Assembly (NCBI GenBank): GCA_013176395.1
Contig: JABMLP010000034.1
Location: 1 to 64,000, forward strand
Direction of reading: 5' to 3'
Length of the DNA: 64,000 nt
From: Venturia oleaginea
Taxonomy: Eukaryota > Ascomycota > Dothideomycetes > Venturiales > Venturiaceae
This document shows positions 20,894-54,727 of this stretch, piece by piece; within the stretch, counting starts at the first letter, position 1, and every line of letters begins with the position of its first letter. The notes under the pieces are model-generated. The model ran no database searches and was not told where the DNA came from. It saw only the letters and a program-made list of their open reading frames with translations. A program made the position numbers and the translations under genes.

Positions 20894-21225
20894 TGTTAAG
20901 GGATGGAATCCTTCTCTCTAGCTTATCCATGACTGGATTTCCAATTGTTCTCTTGTTATTCTGCAAGCTGTCATGTTCTATTTTGCAAGCTGTCATGTTC
21001 TATTTTGCAAGCTGTCATGTTCTATTTCGCAAGCTGCCATGTTCTATTTTGCAAGCTGTCACGTTTCCATTTAAAGATACTTTCTAGAAGGATCTATTGT
21101 AAGAGGAGGATTATATATACTAGCTATCCTTCCTGTACTTACACTTTCTTCTCTGTACTTAGATACTTGAAATATAAGCTGTCTTCCCTCACTTGCGAAA
21201 CACCTTTGAGGGTTGAACTCTTACA
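20894..21225 (+). repeat. gypsy-B 5' LTR
   Basis: 332 bp, TGTTAAGG...CTCTTACA, with five 22-bp 'gcaagctgtcatgttctatt' units at about 20960-21060 and a 'tatatatac' promoter-like stretch near 21110. The internal sequence begins 'ttatctaagtacc', the same as in gypsy-A. Confidence 0.9.
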
Positions 21226-30339: not shown

Positions 30340-32770
30340 ATGGCCGACCTCCTCACCCGGCCAGAGGCAATCAAAATTAAACCTATTGGAGATGGCTTGA
30401 GTGCATTTCGTGACTTGTCCAAGTCAGTCTGTAACGGCCTATGCTTCCCCGTCTCCACGAATGCTCTACTCCAGATGAGCAATGAGGGTAACTTCTGTTG
30501 GCTTGTTGCAAGGTCTCTCTAACGGACATAGGTCTGCAAAATCTAGCACTTGATCTTGTTTTAGCATTGCAAGGACTTCCTGCCTCTCGTGTCCTGCCTT
30601 CTAGCACTGGGCGCGGCAATCTCTTTGGCGATCTCCTAAATCTCAATGCAGCAATCAATGCTGACGGCTTCGACTTTGAACGAATCGCCCCTCTTCTCAA
30701 CGCGGTCCTCAACAATGAGACTGATGAACTCATCTGGAATAATGTCTACGCGGCCGTCGCCAGACCAACTACTCCTCTTCAATCCAACCTGCCATTTACC
30801 GCCTCCTTTCAACAGACACCCTGGACTTTCAACACTGGCAGCTTCGCAGACACATCCGACCTTCGGAGGCATGTTGATCCCATACTCAAAGCCGAAGTAG
30901 AAGATGACCTCATAATCGACCATCCCCAATTCTTTGACACTTTCTTCGGACAAGTTCCACAGCTTCGAGAGATATCGACAGCTGTGTTCCAGATGTGCAA
31001 AGATTCAGAGCCGTCGTTATACACGGAAGACGCTGGCTGGGCGGAGTGGCCAGAGGGCTGTGAAGAGTTAAGGGTATTAAACTGGCTCAGTCGCCATGTC
31101 AAAAAATTCCTGCTTTTCGCGAGTGAAAGAGGATTCCGTCCCCACAAACGTCGACGATGCGTTACCACCCCAAACAAGCCTATCCCTGGGTCGGTCAGCA
31201 AACGAAAGCTGGACGTCGGCTTCGCCTATGAGTTGAGCGGAGACGACGATGGGCTCGCTAGCACATGGTCCGATATCCTTGTCCCTGGCGAGCTCAAGGG
31301 TCATTCGCGGGAAGACAACCATCGGAGCACTTGGCTTGACTTGATCAAATATGCGCGGGAGGTGTTTAGCGGACAAGACACCCGTCGATTCGTTCCAGGC
31401 TTTACCATCTATGGGTCACTCATGCGTCTGTGGGTATTTGACAGACTTGGAGGAGTTGCTTCTCAAGCATTCGACATCAACAAAGATGGTCAAATGTTCG
31501 TTTCGGCAATTCTGGGGTATCTATGGATGGATAAAGAAGAGCTGGGCTTCGATCCTACTATACTAGAAGAGGATTCCCGAAGGTACACCAGTATTGTGCG
31601 GAATGGGTTGGTGGAGCGGATTTACCTGGAAGAACTCATCCAGCGGCAATCTTCGGTCGCAGGTCGAGCGACTACCTGCTGGAGAAGCTCCCCCGTCGGC
31701 CCCATTAAGGATTCATGGGAGTATGAGGAGCGACCCGAAGAGGGTCTTTTGCTGAAAGAAGCTACAGAAGCTGGAGTGGAGAACGTTGCGCGTTACTACC
31801 ATCATGAGACTGTGTACGTTGGGGGTGCGGTCGACGATGTTCGCAATAACGTTCGGAAAGGATTGCAAGACGCCCACGGGAGAAATCCATTCCAAAAGCG
31901 AAGACTTGAACAGTCGGAGTCTATCACGAGCCCAGCCACGTCCGGCATATTGGACAGAGGGAGAGGGAGAAGCATCACGCGCAAGAGATCGTCGAGCTCT
32001 ATACACATATCAATGCCGCCTCCTAAACGCTCCTGTTCAGACTCCCCAGTTAAACAAGATGCCCAACGCCAACGCAATCGAGTCCATCGTCGCGTGATCA
32101 TGTGTGATATGGGAAAGAATATTTACAATGCGAGTTCCCTGGGAGCCATGCTGACAGGATTGCTGGGAGGTATCAAAGGTGAATAGTGTACTAAAGATAA
32201 CTTTGGATTCTGCTAACTAATTTAGGACATGAATCACTTTTAAACGCTAAGATCCTCCACCGTGATATATCCATCGGGAACGTCCTGCTGAACGAGGCCG
32301 AGGACGACGGCTTTCTAATCGATCTCGACCTTGCCGTTAAAACCGACCGCAAAAAGGCTTCAGGGGCACCGAGCAAGACAGGTACCAAAGTGTTCATGGC
32401 AATCGGCGCCCTTTATGGGGAGGATCACAATTTTATGCACGACTTGGAGTCGTTCTTTTGGGTGCTCTTCTGGCTCTGCGCACACTGGAATGGGCTTGGG
32501 CAAAAGAGGAGTAAATCAGAATACGAGTCTTGGAACTACAAGGACACAAAGGAATTGGCAGAAATCAAAAAAGGCAAGATAGACGAGCAGGATAAGTTTG
32601 ATAAGGAAGTGGATGAGAATTTTACCGCTTACTGTAAACCGTTGATTCCTTGCGTACAAGAGCTACGCAAAGTGGTATTCCCAGAAGGGAGAAGGTGGTT
32701 AACCCAGGATCAACGGCTGTATGCTCAGATGAAGTCAGTGCTGGAGAATGCGAAAACAAGCCTGGGGTAA
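30340..32770 (+). CDS. FunK1-type fungal protein kinase
   Basis: Three exons, 30340-30487, 30532-32178 and 32226-32770, give 779 codons in one frame. Both introns are short (44 and 47 bp) with CTAAC-type branch sites. The middle holds the FunK1 blocks VPGELKGHSREDNHRSTW, YAREVFSGQDTRRFVPGF and RLWVFDRLGG. Exon 3 holds the catalytic loop ILHRDISIGNVLLNE (H610, D612, N617), LIDLDLAV (D631, the metal-site Asp, in DLD not DFG) and HDLESFFWVLFWLC. FunK1 kinases are a family expanded in filamentous fungi, some expressed around mating; substrates are unknown. A Lys/Arg-rich stretch before exon 3 (about residues 500-550) may be a nuclear signal. No defect is seen, making it one of the few intact genes here. 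Confidence 0.9.
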
Positions 32771-35056: not shown

Positions 35057-35069
35057 CATTGCCCACAGT

Positions 35070-36672
35070 AAAAACAGCACACACAGCGAGAACTCAATTT
35101 TTGGAATTTACAGAAGTATTATCTAAAGATCATCAAAACACCTCTGCCAGTGGCCGCTCCGGCCTCTAGAGGCCATCGCGCGTCCCTCAGCGTCGATGAG
35201 ATACCTCTAGAGTCGCCGTCGCGGCCACGGCAGAGCAAGCAGACGAATACATGAGCAAGCTACACGAACGATGCGTCCACCAAAGACAACAGCAACCATC
35301 TAGTCACTATCTTCCGGCTAGTCCAGCACCCCAGATGACACTGCAACGCTCCGAGTCGACGAGTCACTGCTAGAACGGCAATACCTTCAACACAACTCAA
35401 ACACCAGACGCCCGGTGTGCAACAATCGGCACCACACACCACTGCAACGACTAGACAACCTCTCCCAACGTCTTGGCAAACCGTCCTGCTACAAGCTGTT
35501 GCCCAGAGCCTTGAGCCTCTCCCCAAACTGTTGCGTCCCAGTTATGGCATTGGCAAGAGTAGGTGCGCAACACAGTAAGTAGTAAGGACGCATAGAAGGA
35601 GCCTATTGGCGGCAAATCCCCTCCCTGTAAGCTAGCAGACGTAGCCTTGAGCCTCTCCCCAGACTGTTGCGTCCCAGTTATGGCATTGGCAAGAGTAGGT
35701 GCGCGATATAGCAAGCAGGGAGAGCGACTAGCAGCAGATAGGCTCCGACTATAAGACGACAGGTCTACAACACAATCGGTGCGACACGATACGGCAGCTG
35801 CTAGAGAACCTCATCTACTATCATCTCCGCAAACCGTCCTGCTGCAAGCTGATGTCCAGAGCCTTGAGCCTCTCTCCAAACTATTGCGTCCCAGTTATGG
35901 CATTGGCAAGAGTAGGTGCGCAACACAGTAAGCAGTAAGGACGAATAGAAGGAGCTTATTGGCGGCAAATCCCCTCCCTACAAGCCAGCAGACGTAGCCT
36001 TGAGCCTCTCCCCAGACTGTTGCGTCCCAGTTATGGCATTGGCAAGAGTAGGAGCGCGATATAGCAAGCAGGGAGAGCGACTAGCAGCAGGTAGGCTCCG
36101 ACTATAAGACGGCAGGTCTATAGCACGATCGGCGCCATACAATACGGCAGCTACCAGACAGCCTCGTCTACGGGCATACCCGGAGTATCACACCCAAGCA
36201 GCGAAATCACGACTACGATGGTTACTATTGTCTCCAGCATCACACAACCAAATACACCGCCGCATAGGAATCTGGTGCAAGGCAACTTTCACAAGCAGAA
36301 ACATACTTAGGGAACCCATTGGCCTTGAGGGATAAGGCGAAACAGATAGACAAAGCTGAGCACTAGAGGGAGACTGTAGGTAGAAGGATAGCGAAACACG
36401 AGGCATTGCCTCTTGAGTCTACATAGCACAGATATACTAGCAGAGTAACCAGTATCTACAAGAGCCAGCGGGCATTTGGAGATACTGGTTAAGGGAAAAG
36501 AAGGAGGACCGGGGGGACAGCTGGTCTTGTTTCAGTAAACGGGGCGAAGTGGGGCGCGGTGGATTATATAATCTATCACGTGTCGGCTGTCTGATGAAGT
36601 CCTCCTAACCGGACATAGCTGCGTGATTAAGCGGCTGCAACCGAGTAGGATAAAATCAATCAATCAATCAAT
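35070..36672 (+). mobile_element. (TCAA)n-tailed retroposon, copy A
   Basis: 1,603 bp starting AAAAACAGCACACACAGCGA and ending ...GGATAAAA(TCAA)n. It is flanked by a 13-bp direct repeat, cattgcccacagt (35057-35069 and 36673-36685). It has no ORF of note in sense direction. The body contains two ~353-bp tandem units, each carrying two copies of 'gttgcgtcccagttatggca', and a palindrome GGCCTCTAGAGGCC near 35168. A duplication of this length plus a simple-repeat tail indicates target-primed reverse transcription. Copies B and C share both ends. Confidence 0.85.
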
Positions 36673-36685
36673 CATTGCCCACAGT

Positions 36686-37288
36686 GTGGGAAGAGCCAAG
36701 AGGTGTGGGAATACACCTTGGCACCCAGAACCAGAAGGGTATATAGGGAGGACGTTGGACGGACTTTCCTTTCTCTCTTCGTGGTTATCTCATGTTATGT
36801 TTCTCACATAGGAGCTTCTTCAACCTACTACAGTAACGACCTTTTACTTAGATACAATCAAGCACAAGTCATATGCACACGAAGCAAGCCCACCCCCAAC
36901 CTTCACACTAACCGACAAGCGTTCAGGATTGATCTGAGGATCAAATCGGTTAGACGACAATTGAATTGGGAGATACATCGGACGGCTAGGATCTAGTGAG
37001 CCTCCAAAGAACCTGAGCAAGGAAAGGTACTTAAGGTAAGTACTTCCAGACTGATATTGCCCTTACCCCAAACCCGCGGACCAGAACAAGAGAACACAGG
37101 CGTCAAGAAGGTCTTGACATAATCAACTGTGTTGAGAAACGAGTTCCCCGTAACACCAGGTCGATTGCGAAGTCAAGGATACGCCACAGTCATCTCATAC
37201 TGGCATAGTGATTCCTGCCCAAGAGACTATATTCCTTCTCGTCGAAATTCTTGGCAAACATGGTGGGTGTTTGAAAATGTTTGATATT
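36686..37288. other. No gene; possible promoter or LTR relic
   Basis: A TATA-like 'gggtatatagg' lies near 36738. With the sequence left of copy A it may form part of an LTR, but no matching partner is present. No coding is seen. Confidence 0.35.
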
Positions 37289-38798
37289 TGAACAGTGGCA
37301 TGCCAGTCCTGGATACCTCAGGCATAGTGCACGTGATAGATGCCAAGAAATGCATTGACATGCATATATATGCATGCAGATGCCACGGAAAAATTAGCAT
37401 GTACAGCGAGAACTCGATTTTTGGAATTTACAGAAGTATCATCTAAAGATCATCAAAACACCTCTGCAAGTGGCAGCTCCGGCCTCTAGAGGCCATCGCG
37501 CGTCCCTCAGCGTTGATGAGGTACCTCTAGAGTCGCCGTCGCGGCCACGGCAGAGCAAGCACACGAATACATGAGCAAGCTACACGAACGATGCGTCCAC
37601 CAAAGACAACAGCAACCATCTATTCACTATCTCCCGGCTAGTCCATCACCCCAGATGACACTGCAACGCCCCGAATCGACGAGTCACCGCTAGAACGGCA
37701 ATACCTTCAACACAACTCAAACACCAGACGCCCGGTGTGCAACAATCGGCACCACACACCACTGCAACGACTAGACAACCTCTCCCAATGTCTTGGCAAA
37801 CCGTCCTGCTACAAGCTGTTGCCCAGAGCCTTGAGCCTCTCCCCAAACTGTTGCGTCCCAGTTATGGCATTGGCAAGAGTAGGTGCGCGACACAGTAAGT
37901 AGTAAGGGCGCATAGAAGGAGTCTATTGGCGGCAAATCCCCTCCCTGTAAGCTAGCAGACGTAGCCTTGAGCCTCTCCCCAGACTGTTGCGTCCCAGTTA
38001 TGGCATTGGCAAGAGTAGGTGCGCGATATAGCAAGTAGGAAGAGCGACTAGCAGCAGAGCGACTAGCAGCAGGTAGGCTCGACTATAAGACGGCAGGTCT
38101 ATAGCACGATCGGTGCCATACAATACGGCAGCCACCAGATAGCCTCGTCTATGGGCATACCCGGAGTATCACACTCAAGCAGCGAAATCACGACTACGAT
38201 GGTTACTATTGTCTCCAGCATCACACAACCAAGTACACTGCCGCATAGGAATCTGGTGCAAGGCAACAATCACAAGCGGAAACACATTTCGGGAACAGAC
38301 AAGCCTTGAGGGATAAGGCAAAACAGACAGACGAAGCTGAGTACTGGAGGGAGACTGTAGGTAAAAGGTTAGCGAAACACGAGGTATTGCCTCTTGGGAT
38401 CTATATAGCACGGATATACTAGCAGAATAACCAGTATCGACAAGAGCCAGTGGGCATTTGGAAATACTGGTTTAGGGAAAAGAGGGAGGATGGAAGGGAC
38501 AGCTGGTCTTGTTTTAGTGAACGAGGCGAAGTGGGGCGTGGCAGATTTTATGATTTATCACGTGTCGGCTGTCTGGTGAAGGCCTCCTGACCGGACATAG
38601 CTGCGTGCTAAAGCGGCTGCAACCGAGTAGGAAACAATCAATCATCCATCAATCAATGCAGATGCCACGGTATACTTAACCTCCTTAGTCAATACAGTCA
38701 AGTCACAGGGTGACACTCGTTCTGTTCATCGGCTCCTATCGTTAAGTTCGTGTTGAATCTACTTCCGAATAACTCTGTTTTGCTCGTTCAGCGTAACA
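37289..38798 (+). repeat. Copia LTR (copia-5 family) split by retroposon B
   Basis: The LTR occupies 37289-37388 and 38671-38798. Its left part 'tgaacagtggcatgcc' and right end 'gcgtaaca' match 24367-24597. Copy B sits between, with atgcagatgccacgg repeated at both junctions. The LTR is not followed by the primer site, so it is a solo LTR; its outer flanks show no clear duplication. Confidence 0.85.
37389..38655 (+). mobile_element. (TCAA)n-tailed retroposon, copy B
   Basis: 1,267 bp, same 5' start (AAAAATTAGCATGTACAGCG) and tail (…AATCAATCATCCATCAATCAAT) as copy A, with a 15-bp direct repeat atgcagatgccacgg (37374-37388 and 38656-38670). It has only one of the ~350-bp internal units, which explains its shorter length. 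Confidence 0.85.
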
Positions 38799-39669
38799 GA
38801 TCAAGCGATTGCCGTATAGTTTGACTATATACATTGTCTAAATACGGTTAGCGCAGTTCTGGCGGCGGCCACAAGGGCCGCCGCATTGCATTACAGTGTC
38901 ACTTCTGCTATTATTACCGCATCATTTTCGTCTCATCTCGTGTTATTCTCGTGATTGGCTTGCAATTAAGCGTTTACAACTCCATAATATCATCTATCTC
39001 CGTTCTTTTACTACTAGTATATGTATAGTAAGCCAGCGGAAATGGTTTGCCGCATACCCTAACGTACCAGGACATGCCTTGTCGAGTCTCGGACATGCAT
39101 AGCCTGTTGCAGTAAGGGTTGCAAGGTGATGTAAACATGTATGATGTCTATCATTGTGTATTGTATTGTTCTATGTTCAGCCGTAGAGCTGATGTTTACA
39201 TATGATGTGTGTACTGTAGCAGGAGCTATTGTGATAAAGGAAGTAAGAACGGTATAGCTCAAGTGTGCCTTCTATACCAGGATGTGACATAGCCCGCTTT
39301 TACATACTAAAACATGCCAAAAGCATGTATGCATGCGATAGGGTATGTCCCAGTATGTCAAGGCATGCGGCAGACCGTTTGGGCAAGGCATGTTCGAGTG
39401 GAGACTTTAGCCGATATTAAAATATGCGGAGGTGTATCACGATTTACGAGATTCTTCGTTCTCAGGTTTGGCCCAAGTACGAGGAATTGGATGGCATGGC
39501 TGGGATCATTTAATTTGCTCGGTAAGGTGGCGGTGCGGTCTGTGAGCATGTGCTCTTACTTATATTTTAAATTAATATATCGCGTAGTTACCTAGAGGAA
39601 ATAAATACTCGTGCGCGCCCACAAGATTGCCTCCTACCAACACCACTACCTATAACGCGTAAACCGAGA
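38799..39669. other. Intergenic, no gene seen
   Basis: Several copies of short 'gcatg'/'catgc' words occur (about 39060-39370), with no stable period. No coding frame is convincing. A TATA-like AT-rich run near 39560-39600 may serve the gene at 39670. Confidence 0.5.
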
Positions 39670-40005
39670 ATGTACTTCCAAATTCTCCTCCCAGCGATCC
39701 TATTCGCCCAATCCGGCTTCGCTTACTACTGCTGTTTCGCATTGTATATTCCCTAACCCCTAAAGATTTGTACTCAATGACCACAGTATAGGAGAACCTA
39801 AGACGGAGAAAATTCTGTTTCGCGCTACACCTCGAGCGACCCTCCCCGTATTGATAGATTTACTGTAGTTCCCGGCTGCGACATCGAGATCACCAAGAAC
39901 CCCGGCGGCTGTAGCCAGTGGACAATGCATAAATATAAAAATGTGACACTCTGTAAACCTCTTGCACCTTTTACCTTTATTGGGATTGGCCCAAGTTCGC
40001 TTTGA
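39670..40005 (+). pseudogene. Small secreted Cys-containing protein, gene model unclear
   Basis: The ATG at 39670 opens MYFQILLPAILFAQSGFAYY, a good signal peptide, followed by two Cys residues. An intron is likely from the GTATAT near 39752 (with CCCTAACC) to a CACAG near 39787. Further on, the frame DGENSVSRYTSSDPPRID with VVPGCDIEITKNPGGCSQW runs to a TGA at 40003-40005. No simple splice joins the two frames, which suggests a frameshift near 39795-39805 or a missed intron. The layout is that of a small secreted protein, possibly an effector; no family is recognised. Confidence 0.4.
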
Positions 40006-40701
40006 AAATGAGTTGGGTTTGAGAAATCAGCTGGGGATTGTTGGGAAGGTGGTCGGAAGTGAAGATGCTCAATGGCGTATTCTAATGGGAGAGGCTTGGG
40101 GTTTATGGGGGGATTAGGCTATCTGCATCAAAGGCTTGTGCATGCAAAACGCGTACCACTGAGCAGAGGTCTTCATTATGGAGTACAGACATTTCCTAAA
40201 AATTCAACTTCTCTTTATTAGTTCCTCGAATCTTGAATCTCGCATCTCGAATCTCGCATCTAGAATCTCGACTGAACGCAATGCACCAATCATCAACCTG
40301 GCGGCGGTCCAATACCGCCTGCATCTTCACTAACCAGATGCATGGATGGCTTCGGTCCAACTCTCCTGCTTATGATTGAGACGGCGCCATCAGCCATCAT
40401 TCCATCCCTTGCTATCGATCCTTCTTCTCCATCCATTCGTTGTTCTCGCCTGTATAACTCCAATCTTTTCCTTTCTCATAGCCCTTCGTTCAGCCTGAGT
40501 TCTACCGTAATCATACTCCCACTGATCCTTCCGCCCTCCCGCAAACCCCGTCGTGCTTTCCTGGAAACATTGCTTTGAATCGTCTCCGACGACAGCATCT
40601 TCAAACCCGCCTGCGAAACAAGCATCGCTTTCTGCTTATATTGCTTTCCATCGCGTCTTACTACATCCTCTGAGCCGTCTAAATCTTCTTCCAGCTACCT
40701 C
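40006..40701. other. Intergenic and promoter region of the GH16 gene
   Basis: A repeated word 'ctcgaatctcgcat' occurs near 40225-40270. CT-rich runs (about 40420-40560), common in fungal promoters, precede the GH16 start. No gene is seen. Confidence 0.45.
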
Positions 40702-41875
40702 ATGGCACGCTATTTCCGTGTCGCAGCAGCTGCTGCCCTCGCGACAGCTGTCTTCGCTGCCGCTCCTACTTGTGGACCTAATAACCCATGTCCTGCATCT
40801 GCGCCGTGCTGTTCTGGTACGTGGAACTTTTTGCACTGCTGAAGAAGCAGCTTCATTTGGTGGCCGCAACTAACAATTGTCCCAGCATATGGCCAGTGTG
40901 GTGTAGGCGCATATTGCCTTGGTGGATGCGACCCTCTCTTCTCCCACACACTCAAATCCTGCGTTCCAGCACCCGTATGCAAGACCCAGGACTACAAGCT
41001 CAAATCCCTCAGCGATGTCATGGATATTTCAGATTACCTCGGTGATGCGTCAAAGGCGAACTTGCAGGTCAGCGGAAAGCCTGTAGTATATAATAGCAAC
41101 TGTTTACTTTTCACAATGGCACCGGAGACCGTCGGCACGTTAATGGCCAGCACGCATTACGTCTGGTATGGTAAGATTTCGGCGACTATGACATCGAGTC
41201 AGGGACAGGGTGTGGTGACGGCATTCACCATGATGAGCGATGTGAAGGATGAGATTGATTTCGTACAAACCAATTTTTACTCCCAGGGTGTTACCAACTG
41301 TATGTTGAGATGGTGCCTTCTTGTCACAGCCAGGATTCGTTGACCACCTCCAACTCCTAATCGATGTCGCTCAATTTTTGGCGACTTTTGAGAAGCTCAA
41401 TACCAGAAATTTAACAATATCGATATGGGATTGAGAGATAGCTGTGAGAACGCTATTTCCTGAATACGCCAATTAACAGAGTACAGACAACAACGGCGGC
41501 AACGTGAGCGCAAGCAATACAGTCTCAACCACGCACACGTACACAATCGATTGGACCCCAGACAAGATTGACTGGATCGTCGATGGAGCCGTTCTACGTA
41601 CCAAGAAGCGTTCAGAAACTTGGAACAGCACCTCGAATCGCTACGATTTCCCTCAAATCCCATCCCGGATCATGCTCTCCCTGTGGCCCGCAGGTCTACC
41701 ATCCAATGGCAAGGGTACCGTCGACTGGGCAGGTGGACTGATCAACTGGAATTCTCCATACATGCAAAATAGCTACTACTACTACGCCATGGTCTCAGAC
41801 GTCAACGTACAGTGCTACGACGTGAGCCGCGCGTCCCTCGCGACGGACTGGATTCTAGCATCGGTTAATTGCTGA
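40702..41875 (+). CDS. Crh-type GH16 cell-wall enzyme with chitin-binding module, catalytic block altered
   Basis: Exons 40702-40816, 40886-41299 and 41487-41875 give 305 codons. Introns are 69 bp (branch CTAAC) and 187 bp. Residues 1-20 are a signal peptide; residues ~24-75 are a Cys-rich chitin-binding module (CCSAYGQCGVGAYCLGGCD). Then comes the Crh-type GH16 domain (STHYVWYGKISATM, VVTAFTMMSDVKDEIDF, DWTPDKIDWIVDGAVLRT). Crh enzymes link chitin to beta-glucan in the wall. In the E-x-D-x-E motif E161 and D163 are present but the acid/base Glu is replaced (V165), and about ten residues usual between EIDF and QTN are missing. So it may be inactive or bind only. No C-terminal GPI-type tail is seen. 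Confidence 0.88.
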
Positions 41876-42100
41876 ATACCAACATACATTCGATTTTCTT
41901 GCAGTTACATACATTAAATTGCAGTTACATACAAACGACATATATGTATACAATTTGTATGCGATTGCAAACATAATATGCAAACGACATATATACATAC
42001 AATTTATATATGATTGCAAATATAATATGTAGCCACCTCAACGCCGCAACGCCGCAAAAAAGAGACTAGTCCAAAAAGAGAAGAATGTACAGATGTTTTG
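41876..42100. repeat. AT-rich short repeats
   Basis: The words 'acgacatatat', 'atacaattt' and 'gattgcaaa' recur at about 41930-42030 in two diverged units. No coding is seen. This is probably outside the MULE end. Confidence 0.5.
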
Positions 42101-42350
42101 ATGGTGTTTTTGAGCGATTTAACCCTTAAATAGTTCAGTGCATTGCGTTTAAAATATATACAGAGATTACCGCTTTCAGACGTTTTTATGGTGTTTTTGA
42201 GCGATTCAACCCTCAACACAATTCAGCGCATTGCGTTCAAAATATGTATAGAGATTACCGCTTTCAGACATTTTGATGGTGTTTTTGAGCGATTCAACCC
42301 TCAAACAGTTCAGTGCATTGCGTTCAAAATATATACAGAGATTACCGCTT
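42101..42350. repeat. 87-88 bp tandem repeat, three units
   Basis: Units start with 'atggtgtttttgagcgatt' at 42101, 42188 and 42276 and run to 'agagattaccgcttt'. They adjoin the 3' end of the MULE transposase and may be part of its terminal region. Confidence 0.85.
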
Positions 42351-45300
42351 TGGGCATGCCAAAAATGCGTGATTTGGATCACGGCAAATGCCGCAGGGAC
42401 CACGAATACGTTTCGGAATAGGAGGCTCTACTGATGATGGCTCTGCAGAGCGCTTTTGCCGTGGAGTTAGGCGGAGGGACTCTTGAGTAGCAGCAGTAGT
42501 AGAGCCGAATGGTGTTAGAAGCCATCTGCTTGAGTTAGGCTGAGATTCAGCCTCGTCCTGATCGTCACCGGCATCAGGGTCACCACGGTTCAAGTATAAC
42601 TCGGCGGCCTCGGCAATGGCGTATTCATCACTCATAACTGCAGCTTCGGCTTCTGCGCGGGATACGAAGGTGATATTGGCGGCGGCAGAGGTAGAAGGCA
42701 GAGGTAGAAGGCAGAGGTTCAGTATCATCATCATCGCTAGATTGCTCGTCGTCGTCAGATATCGCAATTGGGGCTGCAGCCTTAGCGGCCGATTTTGAGC
42801 GTGTAGATGTCGATTTTGGCGTTGTATTTAAAGCCGGTTTAAGCGTAGAATTGGTGGCAGATTTAATAGGTTTAGTAGTCGATTTGGCAGTGTTTTTGGG
42901 AGTAGATTCTTTGTCGGAGGTGTCGCATAAAGCGCGCACTCGGTCACTGAGGGCGAAGGTATCCTTGCGATTCTGAATTCGAGCTGCACTGGCGGCGGCC
43001 TCAATATCATCCTGACGCTTCTGCTTTTTGGCTTTACGAGTAGATCTAGCGGCGGCAGTGTCACCCTTACGCCTAGAATCTTTGCGAATACGAGTATTGG
43101 TGTTGTCAACTCGATAACGCTTCTCTCGAGGTCGCCCTGCTTTACGGGCGGCCTCATTTGGCAACGTGGTTCCATCTGGAATGAGGTTTGAGAACACAAT
43201 TGGGCGCATTGATCCCTCGTAGGTATTACGAGAGTTCAATCTCGTATAAACGGTGGGAGGATAGACTGTATACATGTTCTCAAAATCCAGCTGTTGATGT
43301 ATAAATGCAGCGAATGCGTGAGCGCAAGGGAGACCATGGTCCTGCCACTCAAGGCAATCGCATTTACCTTTTTTGAGGTGAACCACCCATCCAGGAGCTC
43401 CGGGTGAGTCGTGAAGCCGTACTAATACAACGAATGTACTGGAGGTGTAGGCAATCATCCTACGGCCAACTTCATAGCGGTCATACTGATGCTGTGCCGC
43501 ATACTGAGTAAGGGGTTGGCCGTGGATAACTTCCTTCCCATGGTCAAAGGTTGCGCGCTTCCAGATTCGCTGCATTTCCTTGGTCCAGATAGCCTCAAGC
43601 ATATGCAATGGTGTCATCTTTCGCTCCTCCAGGTAACGTGCGTTCATTGACTCTCCAATGTTCGAAGTTGTATGGCTGTACCGAGGATACTCAGTAAGTG
43701 GCGCGTAGGCTTTACAGTAACGGTCCTTCTCGCCAATAGCCTCAATGTATGCAACCGCGGCATCGCCGTTATCGAGGGCGCTAATCTGCTCAACGAGGGC
43801 GTAATGGGCGGCTTTAGTAGGGGCTTGACACGCTCTGCGGAACAAGATCTCGACATCCTGGCCGTGGTATTTGCGGACATTCTCTGCCAAGATTGATTGA
43901 TTGATTGATTGATTTTATCCTACTCGGTTGCAGCCGCTTAATCAGGCAGCTATGTCCGGTTAGGAGGACTTCATCAGACAGCCGACACGTGATAGATTAC
44001 ATAATCCACCGCGCCCCACTTCGCCCCGTTCACTGAAACAAGACCAGCTGTCCCCTCCGTCCTCCCTCTTTTCCCTTAACCAGTATCTCCAAATGCCCGC
44101 TGGCTCTTGTAGATACTGGGTATTCTGCTAGTATATCTGTGCTATGTAGACTCAAGAGGCAATGCCTCGTGTTTCGCTATCCTTCTACCTACAGTCTCCC
44201 TCTAATGCTCAGCTTTGTCTATCTGTTTCGCCTTATCCCTCAAGGCCAATGGGTTCCCTAAGTATGTTTCTGCTTGTGAAAGTTGCCTTGCACCAGATTC
44301 CTATGCGGCGGTGTATTTGGTTGTGTGATGCTGGAGACAATAGTAACCATCGTAGTCGTGATTTCGCTGCTTGGGTGTGATACTCCGGGTATGCCCGTGG
44401 ACGAGGCTGTCTGGTAGCTGCCGTATTGTATGGCGCCGATCGTGCTATAGACCTGCCGTCTTATAGTCGGAGCCTACCTGCTGCTAGTCGCTCTCCCTAC
44501 TTGCTATATCGCGCTCCTACTCTTGCCAATGCCATAACTGGGACGCAACAGTCTGGGGAGAGGCTCAAGGCTACGTCTGCTGGCTTGTAGGGAGGGGATT
44601 TGCCGCCAATAAGCTCCTTCTATACGTCCTTACTGCTTACTGTGTTGCGCACCTACTCTTGCCAATGCCATAACTGGGACGCAACAGTTTGGGGAGAGGC
44701 TCAAGGCTCTGAACATCAGCTTGCAGCAGGACGGTTTGCGGAGACGATAGTAGATGAGGTTCTCTAGCAGCTGCCGTATCGTGTCGCACCGATTGTGTTG
44801 TAGACCTGTCGTCTTATAGTCGGAGCCTATCTGCTGCTAGTCGCTCTCCCTGCTTGCTATATCGCGCACCTACTCTTGCCAATGCCATAACTGGGACGCA
44901 ACAGTCTGGGGAGAGGCTCAAGGCTACGTCTGCTAGCTTACAGGGAGGGGATTTGCCGCCAATAGGCTCCTTCTATGCGTCCTTACTACTTACTGTGTCG
45001 CGCACCTACTCTTGCCAATGCCATAACTGGGAGGCAACAGTTTGGGGAGAGGCTCAAGGCTCTGGGCAACAGCTTGTAGCAGGACGGTTTGCCAAGACGT
45101 TGGGAGAGGTTGTCTAGTCGTTGCAGTGGTGTGTGGTGCCGATTGTTGCGCACCGGGCGTCTGGTGTTTGAGTTGTGTTGAAGGTATTGCCGTTCTAGCA
45201 GTGACTCGTCGACTCGGAGCGTTGCAGTGTCATCTGGGGTGATGGACTAGCCGGGAGATAGTGACTAGATGGTTGCTGTTGTCTTTGGTGGACGCATCGT

Positions 45301-46054
45301 TCGTGTAGCTTGCTCATGTATTCGTCTGCTTGCTCTGCCGTGGCCGCGACGGCGACTCTAGAGATATCTCATCGACGCTGAGGGACGCGCGATGGCCTCT
45401 AGAGGCCGGAGCGGCCACTGGCAGAGGTGTTTTGATGATCTTTAGATGATACTTCTGTAAATTCCAAAAATTGAGTTCTCGCTGTGTGTGCTGTTTTTCA
45501 TTCTCTGCCAAGTGCTGAGTACAGAAGTAGTGGTGAGCGAGAGGGTAAGGAAAGTACTTTGCGATAGATGGATCAAGGCCTTTGCCGCGGTCAGTAATAA
45601 TGCTGATACGTAGTTCATCCTCTTCTTCTTCCGGGTCATCCTCTGATGGCTGTGTAATGTAACGGGAGATAAGGTTGATCTGTAGAAGCTCAAAAAACCA
45701 ACACCACCACTCAATTGACTCGGTAGGTACGATTGCCCAGGCCAAAACCAGTGTATTCTCGTTAGCGTCGAGGCTTGTTGCAATAAGTAGGATACCGCCG
45801 TATTTAGAGCAATGAGCGCCGTCAAAGACGAGGAGGTTCCTATTATGGTGCCAGGCAATTACCATCGCTGTAGGTAACACTGCGGCTGCTTGAAAAACAC
45901 CATCCTCGCTCCTTTTGACGCGTGTGAAGGCGCCATCATAGCCTGATTCACGGTGAGCAGGCATGCACTCATGGCTGAAACTTAAGCCAGATCTCTCGAT
46001 CATGTCACCGTGACCCGCTAGGACGGTGAGCAGGCATGCACTCATGGCTGACAC
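42342..46054 (-). pseudogene. MULE (Mutator-like) transposase, split by retroposon C
   Basis: Part one (46054 down to 45499) holds NRNLLVFDGAHCSKYGGILL with the first Asp, IVPTESIEWWCWFF and IITDRGKGLDPSIAKYFP (second Asp), the MULE DDE core. Part two (43891 down to 42342) continues with VRKYHGQDVEILFRRAC, NIGESMNARYLEERKM, the SWIM finger CDCLEWQDHGLPCAH and, after a frame change near 42710, a C-terminal knuckle CGICRDPNHAFLAC. The frame change coincides with a repeated 'gcagaggtagaag'. Without retroposon C and one target copy, HLAEN joins VRKY in frame. The N-terminal region before the core is missing. Confidence 0.88.
43892..45498 (-). mobile_element. (TCAA)n-tailed retroposon, copy C
   Basis: 1,607 bp in reverse orientation: the tail, seen as (ATTG)n, starts at 43892 and the AAAAACAGCACACACAGCGA end lies at 45498. 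The 14-bp duplication is cattctctgccaag (43878-43891 and 45499-45512). It has two ~350-bp internal units like copy A and is close to A in sequence. Confidence 0.9.
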
Positions 46055-47755: not shown

Positions 47756-47813
47756 TCTGAGTGAATTAGATCGAGTTTGAAGCGCCCTCTCATGATGTGA
47801 CCAGTGTGAGGTG
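47671..47813. repeat. Large palindrome at the pol deletion junction of copia-2
   Basis: A perfect 50-bp arm at 47671-47720 is repeated in reverse complement at 47764-47813, with a 43-bp spacer that itself holds a short inverted pair around 'agacgtc'. The left arm codes the end of the pre-integrase domain; the right arm is its mirror image and leads into the reverse transcriptase part. Integrase coding is absent between them. Confidence 0.95.
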
Positions 47814-49410
47814 CCTCCTCTCCTTCCTAAGCCTCGCAGCCTCTACTGAGCCATTCGAGCCTACAACATACAATCAAGCCATGTCATCACCTTATGCTCC
47901 TCAATGGCTCAAGGCGATGAAGGAGGAGATGCATTCAATAGATGACAACAACGTCTGGACACTCACAACACTCCCAGAGAGCGCAAGGCCACTGACGGGT
48001 AAGTGGGTGTTCAAATTGAAGCGCGGTGCCGACGGCACTATGCTGAGATTTAAGGCAAGATACGTGGTGAGAGGTTTCGAGCAGGAATTCGGCATTAACT
48101 TCCATGATACCTTTGCCTCTGTGGTAAAGCCGATGACATACAAAGCTCTCTTTGCTATTGCTGCCTCCCTTGACTGGGAGATTGAGCAGATGGACGTCAA
48201 AACTGCCTTTCTCTATGGCGAGGTTGATGAAACTATCTTCGTTTGTCAATTTCGTGGCTTCGAGGTTGGTGATGACTACTGTCGGCTCAATCGTGCATTA
48301 TACGCCCTCAAGCAGGCACCTAGGGTTTGGTATGAAACTCTATCCACATTCCTTGTCTCTCTCGGGTTCTCAATGCTAGGTAGTGACTTCAGTGTCTTCC
48401 ACAAAGGACAGCTGTTCGTCGCTATCTATGTTGACGATCTTTTGCTTGTTGGGCCCGATATGAACGAGATCAATCTTCTGAAAGATGCCTTGCATAAGCG
48501 CTCTCAGATGACTGACCTAGGGCCGGCAAAGTTCTATCTCGGCATGGCACTTCAGAGGGATCGTCAGAATCGCTCAATTGCGATTAACCAAACTGCATAC
48601 ATCACGAAGATTCTCGAGGATCATGCCTTCTCCGATTGTTATCCAAAACCCATTCCAATCAACCCATCTTGCCGCCCTACATCCACCAAAGAAGACTACC
48701 GTGCAGACCCTCAGTTCAGAACTAAATATCAATCCGCTGTCGGGTCACTCATGTATGCAATGCTCGGTACCCGGCCTGATATTGCCTTTGCAGTCTCTCT
48801 CGTCAGTCGCTTTGCGGCCAATCCAACAATCGCATATTGGTCCTTGGTGGAAGACATCTTTCGCTACCTCAAAGGTACCATCTCTGCCTCACTCGTCTAC
48901 AAAGGTGAACTCGAAAACCTGGTAGGCTTCACTGACTCTGACTGGGCTGGCGACGTCGGTACAAGGCGATCAACATCTGGATATCTTTTCAACATCGGCA
49001 GTGGAGCAATTAGCTGGTCATCCAAACGACAAGCTACAGTGTCACTCTCCACTTGTGAGGCCGAATACATTGGTCAAACGAATGCAGCAAAAGAGGCCAT
49101 TTGGCTGCAGCGACTACTTCACGAGATCAACCCCGAATTCGGTCCTACCACTACAGTCATCTATGCTGACAATCAAGGCGCCATTGCTCTCGCCAAGAAC
49201 CCACAATCACACGGCCGCAAAAAGGCCATGGACGCAAAGCATCACTGGATTCGAGAGAAGGTCGCCAAAGGTTCCATCATTCTCAAGTACATACGGACTG
49301 CAAAGATGGTCGCCGACGGCCTCACCAAAGGCCTGCCAAGACCCACATTCGAAAACTTCAGGGCCGCCCTGGGCATCATTATTGACGCGATTCCATGGCC
49401 CTCATTCTGA
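47814..49410 (+). pseudogene. copia-2 reverse transcriptase and RNase H
   Basis: One open frame of about 530 codons carries GKWVFKLKRGADGTML, QMDVKTAFLYGEVDE, FVAIYVDDLLLVGPD (YVDD), DLGPAKFYLGM, SAVGSLMYAMLGTRPDIAFA and the RNase H blocks GFTDSDWAGD, STCEAEYIGQTNAAKEA and YADNQGAIALAKN. All catalytic Asp/Glu residues are visible. It lacks a start and its integrase, so it cannot act alone. copia-3 is a close relative in reverse orientation. A CT-rich stretch and the 3' LTR (from 49577) follow. Confidence 0.88.
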
Positions 49411-49576
49411 GTCGATTGGCGGCACTTTCATATCATTATATTATCTCAATGTGGTTAGCCAGCTGGCGGTCTCAATCTCTCTCCTCTATGTCTGCTGGCA
49501 TTCTCCTTGGTCTTTCAGGATCTTTCAATGGATTCAACTCATCTGCACGATCTCATTCTGTCTCAAGCAGGGGGGC

Positions 49577-49731
49577 TGTCAAATGAACTCATTTCATTCA
49601 CCTCATTTGTACTAGCTTGAATGCGAGCCCCTCAATCGTGTATATATATGGGCTATCTGCATATTTATACAATTGAGACTCGCATTCGAGCTAGTACAAC
49701 TGAGGAGAGAATGAAATGAGTTTATTTGACA
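49577..49731. repeat. Tail-to-tail fused 3' LTRs of copia-2 and copia-3
   Basis: The copia-2 LTR starts TGTCAAATGAACTC at 49577; the copia-3 LTR starts TGTCAAATAAACTC on the minus strand at 49731. Both are too short to be whole: the complete LTR at 53118-53243 is 126 bp, and only 155 bp is available for two. They meet in an imperfect palindrome around 'gcgag...ctcgc'. Purine tracts (about 49568-49576 plus strand; 49732-49745 minus strand) adjoin each. Confidence 0.85.
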
Positions 49732-49888
49732 GCCCTCCTGCTTGAAGCAGACCAAAATTGTGTAAATGAAGTGATTACACAAAAACATCCCAGAGGGAGG
49801 AGGAGGTGCCAAAGGGGCAGAGAGAGAGACCGCCAGTAGGCTAACCGCATTGAGACGACGTACAGATGAGGAAGCGTCGCCAATCGAC

Positions 49889-51589
49889 TCAGAATGAGGG
49901 CCAAGGTATCGCGTCAATTACGATTCCAAGTGCAGCCCTGAACAGCTCAAAAGTAGGCTTCGGTAGCCCCTTGGTAAGGCCGTCAGCAACCATCTTCGCA
50001 GTGCGTACATATTTGAGGATAATTGAACCATTAGCAACCTTCTCGCGGATCCAGTGTTCTTTGAGGTCCATGGCTTTGTTTCGGCCGTGAGATTGAGGTT
50101 TCTTTGCGAGGGCAATAGCTCCTTGATTATCGGCGTAAATGACTGTAGTGGATGGACCGAATTCAGGGTTGATCTCGTGAAGCAATCGCTGCAGCCAGAT
50201 GGCTTCTTTCGCTGCATTCGTCTGACCAATGTATTCGGCTTCGCAAGTAGAGAGTGATACCGTGGCTTGTCTCTTGGATTGCCAGCTAATTGCTGCACTG
50301 CCGATGTTGAAAAGGTATCCGGAGGTTGATCTTCTTGTACCGACGTCACCGGCCCAGTCAGAGTCAGTGAATCCGACGAGGTTTTCGAGTTCGCCCTGAT
50401 AGACGAGTGATGCAGAGAGAGTGCCCTTGAGGTAACGAAAGATATCCTCGACGAGGGCCCAGTGTACTGCGTTCGGGTTGGCTGCATAGCGACTGACGAG
50501 GGAGACTGCAAAGGCGATATCTGGCCGTGTGCCTAGCATTGCATACATCAGTGACCCGACGGCAGACTGATATTTGGTTTTGAAGTAAGGGTCAGCAAGG
50601 TAACCTTCCTCCGCAGGTTCTGGCTTCGCAGATGGGTTGATTGGGATGGGTTTAGAGTGACAGTCGGTGAAGCCGTGATCCTCGAGAATCTTCGTGATGT
50701 ATGCAGTTTGATTGATGGAGATTGAGCGATTCTGGCGATCTCTGTGAAGCGACATTCCGAGATAGAACTTTGCCGGCCCTAGATCAGTCATCTGAAAACG
50801 CTTATTTAAGGCCTTTTTCAGGAGATTAATCTGTCGCATGTCTGGACCAATGAGCAGAAGATCGTCAACATAGATAGCTACGAACAGCTGCCCTTTGTGG
50901 AACACACTAAAGTCGCTATCCAGCATCGAGAAGCCAAGGGAGACGAGGAAGGCGGAGAAGGTATCATACCAAACCCTCGGGGCTTGTTTGAGACTATACA
51001 GCGCTTGATTGAGTAGGCAATAGTCATGGCCGATTTCGAAACCACGCGGTTGACAGACGTAGATACGTTCATCAATTTTGCCGTAGAGAAACGCGGTCTT
51101 GACGTCCATCTGCTCGATCTCCCAATCGAGGGAGGCAGCGATTGCAAACAGAGCTTTGTATGTCATCGGCTTCACCACAGAAGCGAAGGTATCGTGGAAG
51201 TCAATGCCGTATTGTTGCTCGAAACCTCTTACCCCAAATCTGGCCTTGAATCGTAGAATAGCGCCATCGATGCCGCGCTTTAGTTTAAGCACCCACTTAC
51301 CCGTCAGTGGCTTCACGCCTGCTGGGAGCTTCGTGAGTGTCCAGACTTTATTCTCATCCATTGAGCGCATCTCATCGTTCATGGCCTTGAGCCACTGAGG
51401 GGCGTGAGGTGAGGTGATGGCTTGATTATAGGTTGTGGGTTCGAAGGGTTCAGGTGAAGCTGCTAGGCTTAAGAATGAGAGAAGGTAGCAAGCAGAGGCT
51501 TTGGCGACGTTCGCGTGAAAGGCCAGCGTGGCTTCAGTTCGAGTGAGGGTAATGGGAGCGCGATCGTGGGTAGGCTTGTATTCGGCCAT
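49889..51589 (-). CDS. copia-3 reverse transcriptase and RNase H
   Basis: 566 uninterrupted codons on the minus strand. Motifs: GKWVLKLKRGIDGAIL, QMDVKTAFLYGKIDE, FVAIYVDDLLLIGPD (YVDD), GSLMYAMLGTRPDIAFAV, GFTDSDWAGDVGTRRSTSG, STCEAEYIGQTNAAKEA, YADNQGAIALAKKP and KMVADGLTKGLPKP. It is the longest intact reverse transcriptase in the window. It would normally be part of a polyprotein; the integrase C-terminus lies just upstream in another frame, so there is a frame break near 51600. It could still serve as a source of reverse transcriptase if expressed. Confidence 0.88.
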   Translation of the reverse strand: MAEYKPTHDRAPITLTRTEATLAFHANVAKASACYLLSFLSLAASPEPFEPTTYNQAITSPHAPQWLKAMNDEMRSMDENKVWTLTKLPAGVKPLTGKWVLKLKRGIDGAILRFKARFGVRGFEQQYGIDFHDTFASVVKPMTYKALFAIAASLDWEIEQMDVKTAFLYGKIDERIYVCQPRGFEIGHDYCLLNQALYSLKQAPRVWYDTFSAFLVSLGFSMLDSDFSVFHKGQLFVAIYVDDLLLIGPDMRQINLLKKALNKRFQMTDLGPAKFYLGMSLHRDRQNRSISINQTAYITKILEDHGFTDCHSKPIPINPSAKPEPAEEGYLADPYFKTKYQSAVGSLMYAMLGTRPDIAFAVSLVSRYAANPNAVHWALVEDIFRYLKGTLSASLVYQGELENLVGFTDSDWAGDVGTRRSTSGYLFNIGSAAISWQSKRQATVSLSTCEAEYIGQTNAAKEAIWLQRLLHEINPEFGPSTTVIYADNQGAIALAKKPQSHGRNKAMDLKEHWIREKVANGSIILKYVRTAKMVADGLTKGLPKPTFELFRAALGIVIDAIPWPSF

Positions 51590-51614
51590 GAGCTTCGTAA
51601 TCTCTATAGCTTTG

Positions 51615-52640
51615 TCAACTCCGTGTAATATGTAATGATATGAATGAGTTTAAGCCAGCGGCCTCACGAGCGCGTTGACTTGGAAGATTGGGGCGGCGTG
51701 TTCTTGTCGCAAGAGAATGAGTGTCTCGCGGTGGTTCTGACCCCATTACTGATGGAGGGTCGGAGAGTCCTGATGAATCGGAGTGGTTAGAGGCCTCATC
51801 TTCATCATTGACGGGAGGTTCAACGCGTTGAAGTGACGGAGAGCGCGAGATTAATGACTTCGCAATGCCGTCAGAAGAAGAGTGATAGCAATGGCGCTTG
51901 CGCTTCTTTGACTCGTCGGCTTTAAAGGTTACTGTACGAATGAGGGCTCCAGTTGGTGTCAGAATCTTGTAGATGCTATTACCTTCGAAGCCTACAAACG
52001 TGCCGTAGAATGAGCGATCTTTGAAACCCTTGGACTTCTTTGTAATGGCCCAACCCCCGCTGCCAAAGATGATGAAGTTCTCAAAGGTCGGTGCCATTCC
52101 ATACCATGCCTCGTAGATGGTCATTGAACCGCTGGGATGCATCATCCTCACGTGAACGTAGTTCGCATGAGCGTAGGCCAAAGGCCAGTACTTCTCTGGA
52201 AGTCTTGAGGCGATGAATGAGGGGTTGGCCATAGTCATAATAACTCCATTAAAGCGCTCGGCTTTTGGGTTCTGCTCAGGATTGTAGGGAGTTGTGCGAT
52301 GATGTGTGATGCCCTGGGTAGCTAAGGTAGCCTCGCTCTCCTTGTCAACGTACTCTCCACCGTTGTCAGTGTGGTAGTAGTGAATCCGGAGGGTAGCGGT
52401 CTCATGGGTGAGCTTGAATTTCTGGAATAGCGGGAAGACTTCGTTTTTGTGCTTGATGAAGTGAACCTCCGAGTAGCCGGTGAAGTCGTCGATGAATGAG
52501 ACTACACATAGCTCTCCGCGGAAGCCCCGTGTTGGGTAGGGACCAGTTACGTCCGGCCAGAGGTTTGAGATTGTTACTGTAGTTTGTACAGCCAGAGTAA
52601 AGGTCTTTTGGGAGCCACGGCAATCAATGAGGATCTCTTT
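51615..52640 (-). pseudogene. copia-3 integrase, N-terminally truncated
   Basis: On the minus strand SFIDDFTGYSEVHFIKHKNE, YYHTDNGGEYVDKES (second Asp) and TTPYNPEQNPKAERFNGVIM (Glu) form the integrase core with its later catalytic residues. Then come ANYVHVRMMHPSGSMTIYEA and GTFVGFEGNSIYKI. There is at least one frame change (about 52240-52400). Before it, from the 5' LTR to about 52650, no gag or protease is seen: that part is deleted or replaced by unassigned sequence (52650-53100). Confidence 0.82.
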
Positions 52641-53100
52641 TGAGCAATAGGAAGGGCATGATGGTGAAGTCTCTGACGTTGAGGCGACTAAAGTGCGATA
52701 ATAGAGTCATAAAAAGGGTCGTGCAGTTGCAGGAGCGGTTTTTCAGGCGTCAATTATGGATCATTGGTAGGTCTCGACGCAAGATAGTTCAGCTGCAGGC
52801 CTCGTATTGGTCTCAAGAGTCATTGATCGTGGTGGTGAGGCTGTAGAATGGTTAGCTCTCAATCATACTTATGGAGATAGTTTTGTTTTGATGAAAATCC
52901 TGAGCCCTCGATAGACGGGAAAATGTTGATCCAAAGAATAGAGAGCTGTGATTGGCTGTATCACTGCAACTCCAAAGGGGTTTCCATGTAACTCGGCCAG
53001 ATGTCCGATAATAATGCCAACGGCGCGGAGTCAAGGAAAGTCCTTGCGGTCTGCTTCGTAATAGGAGGTAATTTGTATGGTGGGCACAGCGATAGCGCAA

Positions 53101-53117
53101 AGCCCGGGCTCATAACC
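53101..53117 (-). other. copia-3 primer-binding site
   Basis: The minus strand reads GGTTATGAGCCCGGGCT directly after the LTR. GGTTATGAGCCC is complementary to the anticodon stem-loop of initiator tRNA-Met, as at 4048 and 24598. Confidence 0.75.
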
Positions 53118-53243
53118 TGTCAAAAGATAGATGAAGCAGACTGAAGTCTGAATTGATGTGTGGGCTATCCGCATATTTATACAATTGAGACTCGCATTCG
53201 AGCTAGTACAAATGAGGATAGAATGAAATGGGTTTATTTGACA
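53118..53243 (-). repeat. copia-3 5' LTR
   Basis: 126 bp on the minus strand, TGTCAAATAAACC to CTTTTGACA. It carries 'tgtataaatatg', a TATA-type promoter. It abuts copia-4 at 53244. Confidence 0.85.
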
Positions 53244-54678
53244 TTTGACACAGTCGCCACCAGATTTGCCCCCACCTGCTACTCCCGCCGATTTCGAAGT
53301 TATTGCTCTTGCAACTAGTACAGGAATAGTGCCCGTCACATCTTTTCATACTGTGAGCACTACTCCTCGCCAAGCCAAGAAAGCAACTGCAAAGGAATGG
53401 CATGAGATTTTGGGTCACGTATCGGAGAGAGCAATTTCAAAGCTCCCAAACTGTACTCAAGGAGCTATTGTTACCACCAACAACGCTCCTATCGGTAACA
53501 AATGTGAGTCCTGTGCATTGTACAAGGCTCAGAGAGTGGTCTCTCGTCGTACTGGGCACTCAGATCTGGGTTCAGGTCTCCCATTTGAGAGGGTGTCGGT
53601 AGATATGGTTCACCACGTCCCATCTTTTGACCATAATCAACGTTCCACTCACCTCGTCTGCAACAACACAGCTTATCATATGGTAACAAACCACTGGGGT
53701 GATGACCTCATGGTTGACGCTATTGAAGAGTTTGTACTGATGATTGAGGCGATGGGGTACAAGATTCGGTGGCTCAAAACTGATGCATTTGTGAACTCAC
53801 GTCTGGCCAACTTCCTCAAAGCACACGGTATTGTTCGAGAACCCTCTGCATCACATACTCAGGATCAGAATGGCGCAGCAGAAGGAGCAGGTCGTATTAT
53901 CACTCGAGTAGCCCGTTCACTTCGGAACCATGCAAAACTCCCAGCGAATATGTGGTCTGAATGTGTCAAGGCCGCAGCCTATCTTCTCAATCTTTGGCCC
54001 ACTGAACGCTTAGATTGGCGAACACCTTTTGAAGCTGTTACTGGAAGGCAACCCAATCTAGCACATCTCGAAGTGTATGGTTGCAGGGCTTACCCTCTTA
54101 TCTACCGCATTCCAAAGCTTTTCAAACGGGAACCAAGAGCTCATATTGGATATCTTGTTGGATATGATTCCAGCAACATCTTCAGGGTTTGGGTCCCATC
54201 CAAAGGAAAAGTCTACCGCACCAGAGATGTTACTTTTCATTCTACAAGATTCTACCATCCTGGTGATGCTGAATTAGGATTGGTTCAGGAGGTTGCACAA
54301 CTGATTGGTGAACTTCCTCCACTTCCGACGCTTTCAGATGGAGTCTCTGCTGCCATTTGTGATACCTTCAGCCTATTCAGGCCAGCAGTTAGTAGTAATG
54401 AGGCTGCAGCATCAACCGGATCCCAATCAAAGCCGCCCACTGAAGAGGAAGCCATCCAAGAACAGTTGCCAATCCTGAAGCAACACCATCAATTGACCTT
54501 GGGTCTTCAGGAAACTTCGAATCCGATGGAGATCTTAATGCCAAACCCGAGGATTCAACCATTGAGGATGATTCTGCTACCCGGCCATCGTGGTATCACG
54601 AAACAACACCAGAATCTACTTAGGTTAGTGCAGATCTCGACACTGACAACATTATTTAAGCAAAAGAACTCGATCTGA
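53244..54678 (+). pseudogene. copia-4 pre-integrase and integrase
   Basis: An open frame of about 470 codons includes EWHEILGHVSERAISKLPN with CESCALYKAQR (zinc-binding pre-integrase), VSVDMVHHVPSFDHN (first Asp), IRWLKTDAFVNSRLANFL (second Asp) and SHTQDQNGAAEGAGRIITRV (Glu). The C-terminal block is HIGYLVGYDSSNIFRVWVPS. Gag and protease are missing, the 5' side being cut by the copia-3 LTR. It is close to copia-1 in style and motifs. The frame ends at 54678 before the reverse transcriptase frame. Confidence 0.85.
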
Positions 54679-54727
54679 ACGTCACAATGCTTTTGTTACC
54701 CAGATTGACGAGCTATCCGGATATCTT

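Follow-up and report, generated by a model that had tools for sequence, protein, structure and literature searches.

A non-coding retroposon of Venturia oleaginea with LINE-like ends and a core unlike the LINE

Introduction

How does an element of 1.6 kb that encodes no protein spread through a fungal genome? The question is raised by a stretch of 64,000 nucleotides of Venturia oleaginea (GenBank assembly GCA_013176395.1, contig JABMLP010000034.1, positions 1 to 64,000; hereafter the window), in which three copies of such an element, A, B and C, are found. A first-pass annotation, made from the sequence alone, had proposed that the element has a fixed 5′ end, is inserted by target-primed reverse transcription and depends on a long interspersed nuclear element (LINE), and that it may represent a new class of structured non-coding retroposon. 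The present analysis points to a different placement. The copies are, with high probability, members of a non-autonomous, LINE-derived family with several hundred copies, in which ~200 nt of a LINE 5′ end and ~330 nt of a LINE 3′ end enclose a non-coding core of ~1.08 kb of other origin, and which the LINE moves. On the best reading it is a short internally deleted element (SIDE) in which the core has been replaced, comparable to Persaeus/Zenon in Lepidoptera. An abundant non-coding element is here paired with a LINE that probably moves it, and copies of both are near-identical in the genome.

Results

Three copies without coding capacity

The three copies and their target-site duplications are located as follows.

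Copy A, 35070..36672, + strand: full-length long form
Copy A target-site duplication, 5′ side, 35057..35069, + strand: CATTGCCCACAGT, 13 bp
Copy A target-site duplication, 3′ side, 36673..36685, + strand: 13 bp
Copy B, 37389..38655, + strand: short form, without ~338 bp
Copy B target-site duplication, 5′ side, 37374..37388, + strand: ATGCAGATGCCACGG, 15 bp
Copy B target-site duplication, 3′ side, 38656..38670, + strand: 15 bp
Copy C, 43892..45498, − strand: full-length long form
Copy C target-site duplication, 5′ side, 45499..45512, − strand: CTTGGCAGAGAATG, 14 bp
Copy C target-site duplication, 3′ side, 43878..43891, − strand: 14 bp

Re-examination of the three copies confirmed these coordinates, the fixed 5′ end, the fixed 3′ block and the TCAA tail, all described in the first-pass annotation, together with the direct repeats of 13–15 bp that differ from copy to copy. 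Copies A and C are identical at 1580 of 1603 aligned positions (98.6%), copies B and C at 1187 of 1265; the segment present in A and C and missing from B is one of two tandem modules of the core, which copy B either lost or never gained.

The element has no coding capacity. The longest ATG-initiated open reading frame (ORF) on its sense strand is 40 aa, and ORFs of at least that length occurred in 285 of 300 shuffled sequences, which bears out the earlier description of the element as non-coding. Antisense coding was considered and rejected: the longest ATG ORF on that strand has 72 aa, a length attained in 137 of 300 shuffles, and three antisense ORFs have no Pfam match.

A head derived from tRNA, 5S or 7SL RNA was likewise rejected, in keeping with the earlier view that this is not a tRNA-type short interspersed nuclear element (SINE): ARAGORN found no tRNA gene in the window and Rfam, ribozymes included, gave no match in the element at E-values up to 5, although no separate scan for A and B boxes was made. 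A SINE with an RNA polymerase III (Pol III) head would share with the element its lack of coding capacity and, as many SINEs do, a 3′ end in common with a LINE, but this identity is scarcely credible given the lack of a tRNA or Rfam match, the LINE-like 5′ end described below, the length of 1.6 kb and a T5 run near nt 29 as a possible Pol III stop; runs of this type can stop Pol III. The Rfam result also led us to reject a known ribozyme at the 5′ end. A hammerhead-like CTGATGA string, noticed by eye near the 3′ end, was discounted, as the remainder of the hammerhead core is missing.

Copy number and family structure

The genome (46.08 Mb, 61 contigs) was searched with copy C, which yielded 638 candidates; 40 of these were scored and gave 40 near-full-length matches and four partial ones. 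A search with the 3′ 100 bp provided the best 40 copies. The 30 element loci studied are the best 30 of the 40 scored matches and therefore represent the youngest copies. Exact 5′ anchors occur 439 times (217 + 222) and exact 3′ anchors 438 times (224 + 214), and the reversed control patterns do not occur; since only exact matches were counted, these figures miss mutated copies and include fragments. The genome-wide count that the first-pass annotation had recommended thus reveals a real and abundant family of several hundred copies, and at 1.6 kb per copy its share of the genome is estimated at ~0.7 Mb or ~1.5%, with the reservation that anchors may sit in fragments.

Among the matches listed for contigs 1–5, 79 of 100 5′ anchors are paired with a 3′ anchor. 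The spacing is 1511–1525 nt in 70 of these 79 pairs, with two peaks near 1518 and 1523, and 1170–1171 nt in four pairs, as in copy B. The near-equal spacing indicates that one fixed structure, or a few master forms, has been amplified, mostly at full length.

Direct repeats of at least 12 bp were found between the flanks of 30 of 32 copies (30 genome copies including C, plus A and B), the other two having 9 and 5 bp. When flanks of different copies were paired as a control, such repeats occurred in 22 of 992 cases, probably from copies seated in copies of one repeated target. Two repeated targets, ATGCAGATGC... and ...CCCACAGTGTGGGAAG, carry several element copies and one LINE at near-identical positions; the site 37374–37388 is shared with loci L009, L016 and L026, and 35057–35069 with L008, L012, L014, L015 and L089. 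This recurrence suggests a target preference, or merely abundant targets.

Both ends are shared with a LINE of the same genome

Because the strongest reverse transcriptase (RT) matches in the genome looked like long terminal repeat (LTR) elements, the partner was sought through its endonuclease domain; the top RT matches, L031–L060, look by eye like Gypsy-type LTR elements, TCAA tails are absent from them, and they were rejected as partners. There are 141 matches to this domain (PF14529), and four LINE loci, L061–L064, were retrieved. One of the four, L061 on contig 60, shares the ends of the element; the remaining three (3/3) are without them and were set aside. L061 is a LINE of 5.9 kb with an ORF1, for which a Pfam search gave no match, and an overlapping ORF2 frame of 1297 aa with endonuclease, RT and RNase H domains, an organization that we take to fit a LINE of the Tad clade. 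The best named relatives of the LINE protein are 62% (Hortaea) and 59% (Exserohilum) identical, and the named relatives among the matches listed are mostly ascomycete. Rfam gave a single irrelevant weak match on the LINE, under the gathering score.

In the numbering of copy C, the element is laid out as follows.

45300..45498, − strand: LINE-related 5′ part, nt 1–199, a diverged homologue of the LINE 5′ untranslated region (UTR) and ORF1 start
45333..45426, − strand: predicted long 5′ RNA hairpin, nt 73–166, −61.9 kcal/mol
44221..45299, − strand: core, nt 200–1278, with faint LINE similarity fading over ~30–40 nt at its 3′ edge
44750..45146, − strand: core tandem module 1, nt 353–749
44397..44796, − strand: core tandem module 2, nt 703–1102; overlaps module 1 and is 88% identical to it over 400 nt
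43892..44220, − strand: LINE-derived 3′ part, nt 1279–1607, comprising the last ~29 nt of LINE ORF2, the 3′UTR and the tail
43918..43965, − strand: terminal 3′ stem-loop (structure prediction), the proposed RT recognition site
43892..43911, − strand: (TCAA)n tail

Element nt 1279–1607 aligns with L061 positions 6479–6801 at 84.8% identity over 330 positions, from the end of ORF2 through the 3′UTR and the TCAA tail. A LINE sharing the last ~100 bp, for which the first-pass annotation had advised a search, is therefore present: the last 103 nt differ by three mismatches, whereas 30-column windows upstream show mostly 67–87% identity, the faint leading edge excepted. This contrast, three mismatches against ~15–30% change upstream, marks a probable RT recognition site that can be tested. 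Among 20 further LINE 3′ loci hand-picked from the 141 endonuclease matches, 18 share the 3′ end of the element at 81.6–85.0%, one shares 147 bp and one shares nothing; these LINE 3′ ends are mostly 98–99.8% identical to L061, which, taken together with the identity of copies A and C, suggests that the element family was probably active recently.

The relationship to the LINE is clear over the first ~38 nt of the 5′ end (none of 2000 shuffles was as good). A colinear alignment extending to element nt ~199 and LINE nt 191, into ORF1, scores 42, the best of 1000 shuffles scoring 16; without the first 40 nt the score is 23 against a best shuffle of 15.5.

The LINE copies resemble the element copies at their insertion sites. 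Target-site duplications of 13–14 bp flank six of seven LINE copies, and G or GG stands at the 5′ junction of three of the six resolved copies. At the corresponding junction between duplication and A-run, G or GG only was found in eight of 31 element copies, a longer insert in two and nothing in 21; a lone C or T was found in none of the 31. Exact LINE anchors number 58 and 61, with 30 pairs, 22 of them 5838–5844 nt apart, so that the element exceeds the LINE by ~7:1 in exact anchors.

Two LINE copies on different contigs (L086/L073 and L090/L065) share one 13-bp target, CCTTACGAAACTC, and at L073 a further element begins 8–10 nt past the LINE. A second, more diverged LINE is present at L088, where its 5′ end faces a canonical LINE head to head.

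The core and the question of its origin

Neither blastn nor tblastx related the core to the LINEs: nt 200–1278 gave no blastn match and no significant tblastx match (lowest E-value 0.066) against the four LINE loci, and the best local scores of four core windows against L061 lie inside their shuffle range. These results bear on the idea that the element is a LINE with a plain internal deletion and a middle that has diverged past recognition. The two ends are indeed LINE-derived and colinear, and the 5′ part is already strongly diverged, but the core shows no detectable derivation from the L061 LINE, its four windows score like shuffled sequence and its tandem modules are absent from the LINE; the element is therefore not a plain deletion derivative as far as can be detected, and we consider this origin quite unlikely. 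The first-pass annotation had itself named descent by deletion from a coding LINE as the finding that would overturn its proposal. This applies to both ends (84.8% identity at the 3′ end, score 42 against 16 at the 5′ end) and, as far as similarity could be detected, not to the core.

A chimera of a cellular non-coding RNA and a LINE 3′ end, generated by template switching during LINE reverse transcription and amplified later, would account for a core without LINE similarity, and has a precedent in the MINE elements of Magnaporthe, which, according to the available part of PMC2104539, join a non-coding RNA of 1.1 kb to MGL 3′ ends. A simple two-part chimera does not fit, because the 5′ ~200 nt are related to the LINE as well. 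Moreover, one fixed structure dominates, the 70 of 79 listed pairs agreeing within 15 nt in length, and MINEs vary in the truncation of their LINE part, as far as they are described there, while copies of the present element do not. We therefore regard the chimera as unlikely.

The reading retained here, a SIDE with LINE-derived ends and a replaced core, leaves room for a more specific proposal that we put forward as a speculation of low probability: the core may stem from the capture of a cellular non-coding RNA, and a fungal SIDE would then serve as a LINE-ended cassette that carries, duplicates and spreads foreign RNA, and its own 5′ hairpin, which has no counterpart in the LINE, may help to produce the excess over the LINE.

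Predicted structure is concentrated at the ends

Folding of the sense strand in 20 windows of 150 nt gave six with z below −2, starting at nt 1, 76, 526, 1276, 1351 and 1426; five lie at the two ends and one in the core (nt 526–675, z −2.2). Strong predicted structure is thus found mainly at the two ends of the element. Two antisense windows reach z −4. For the 5′ hairpin, z is −7.9 in copy C and −3.6 in copy B, where it contains mismatches; the LINE 5′UTR (z 0.4) is predicted to form none like it. The 3′ end reaches z −4.5, and folding predicts the terminal stem-loop for both C and B as well as for the LINE (z −1.6 to −2.9). In RNAalifold, none of the 32 predicted 3′ pairs has changes on both sides, so that the alignment displays sequence conservation that agrees with the structure, not covariation.

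A wholly structured, LINE-dependent non-coding retroposon of a new class would be in keeping with the strong 5′ hairpin of copy C and the structured 3′ end. It is nevertheless very improbable: most core windows fold no better than shuffles, the hairpin is weaker in B, double changes are lacking among the 3′ pairs and both ends are explained by the LINE. Accordingly, the present data do not lend support to the first-pass annotation in calling the element structured along its length or in suggesting a new class, hitchhikers of this kind being already known.

As a lead only, two LINE variants form a small predicted hairpin ahead of ORF1, and a hairpin occurs at the corresponding place of the element. 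In the diverged LINE at L088, the small 5′UTR hairpin retains its fold with one base pair altered.

Proposed cycle and its weighing

From the sequence comparisons, the element very probably moves by borrowing LINE enzymes. The retained LINE 5′ end would start a capped transcript of RNA polymerase II (Pol II). The LINE endonuclease/RT, acting in trans, would recognize the stem-loop and the TCAA tail that both 3′ ends share; such 3′ recruitment of LINE protein follows the general model of target-primed reverse transcription. The enzyme would then nick the target and prime reverse transcription there, would mostly reach the 5′ end of the RNA, and the insertion would leave a duplication of 12–17 bp. 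A non-templated G at the junction is expected if RT copies the cap, and from the G or GG at junctions of both element and LINE copies we infer capped Pol II transcripts copied to their ends. The earlier view of a fixed 5′ end, target-primed insertion and LINE dependence appears to be right in light of the LINE-shared ends and tail and the duplications.

Several observations weigh against this reading. Among the matches listed for contigs 1–5, 21 of 100 5′ anchors and 20 of 99 3′ anchors are unpaired. The element 3′UTR differs by ~15% from every sampled LINE, with no closer parent LINE among them. Past nt ~40 the separate 5′ pieces are weak, nt 61–180 being equalled by 14 and nt 169–230 by 2 of 1000 shuffles, and a local test of element nt 150–230 against the LINE did not rise above shuffles. 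To these are added the core, without detectable origin from the four LINE families compared, and the 0/32 covariation result for the 3′ structure.

Surroundings in the window and genome

The transposase-like gene at 42628–46054, which we take to be MULE-like, has a SWIM zinc finger and harbours copy C; when the flanks of copy C are joined at one duplication, the frame is open over 601 of 604 codons. By Pfam, the window is rich in Copia-type (RVT_2) fragments with a gag-like ORF (6590–7471, 20169–20996, 21890–22912 and 47797–56044) and contains a fungal protein kinase ORF (PF17667) of 562 aa at 30498–32186. Many of the best 150 RT matches in the genome have one and the same score and an open frame of 1373 aa, i.e., they are near-identical intact retroelement copies, which suggests that repeat-induced mutation is weak or absent in this genome.

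Discussion

The element has 3′ homology and 5′ homology to a LINE of the same genome and is non-coding, the features by which SIDEs are recognized. We class it as SIDE-like, an origin by internal deletion being unproven, since the ends are colinear with the LINE and the core is of other or unrecognizable origin. The element did not appear among the matches listed in searches of open-licence literature, Repbase lying outside those searches.

Short elements that keep LINE ends include TbRIME/ingi, NARTc/L1Tc and the R2 SIDEs, which belong to other LINE clades and hosts and in some cases have ribozyme 5′ ends, in contrast to the lack of any Rfam ribozyme here. Elements of this type are named in the available text of PMC6740152, which terms SIDEs rare and, in that portion, gives reports only from flies, a mosquito and trypanosomes in addition to its own from Lepidoptera. 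There, Persaeus is described as having both of its ends from the LINE Zenon and a centre that has no similarity to Zenon. The present element is like SIDEs of the Persaeus type in its LINE-derived ends, LINE-unlike centre, non-autonomous nature, high copy number and, presumably, reliance on the partner's machinery by way of its 3′ end. It is unlike them in its fungal LINE partner with an RNase H domain, its TCAA tail, the tandem modules of its core and its strong 5′ hairpin, and, at 1.6 kb, it exceeds the ~0.3 kb listed for some species.

Fungal non-autonomous retroposons offer further comparisons. Mg-SINE of Magnaporthe has a 3′ end resembling the same-genome LINE MGL; it is called a SINE and a 3′ similarity is what the accessible part of PMC2104539 reports, whereas the present element is LINE-derived at its 5′ end too and 1.6 kb long. 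The MINEs (WEIRD-MGL chimeras) in that source likewise combine ~1.1 kb of non-coding sequence with a LINE 3′ part and have short target duplications, but are described with 5′-truncated LINE parts, many junctions and 31 copies, as opposed to one junction, hundreds of copies and a LINE-like 5′ end here. Eg-R1 and related non-LTR elements of Blumeria, as far as the available text of PMC6022598 describes them, are high-copy, non-autonomous, without A and B boxes, conserved in the 5′ region in the case of the Eg-R1 family, and ascribed to Pol II; no partner LINE is named in that text and our comparison is by description only, but such elements may be of the same kind as the present one. LINE hitchhikers have been known mainly from insects and trypanosomes, and the element described here is perhaps the first clear one from a fungus, a case that would widen the known host range of SIDEs.

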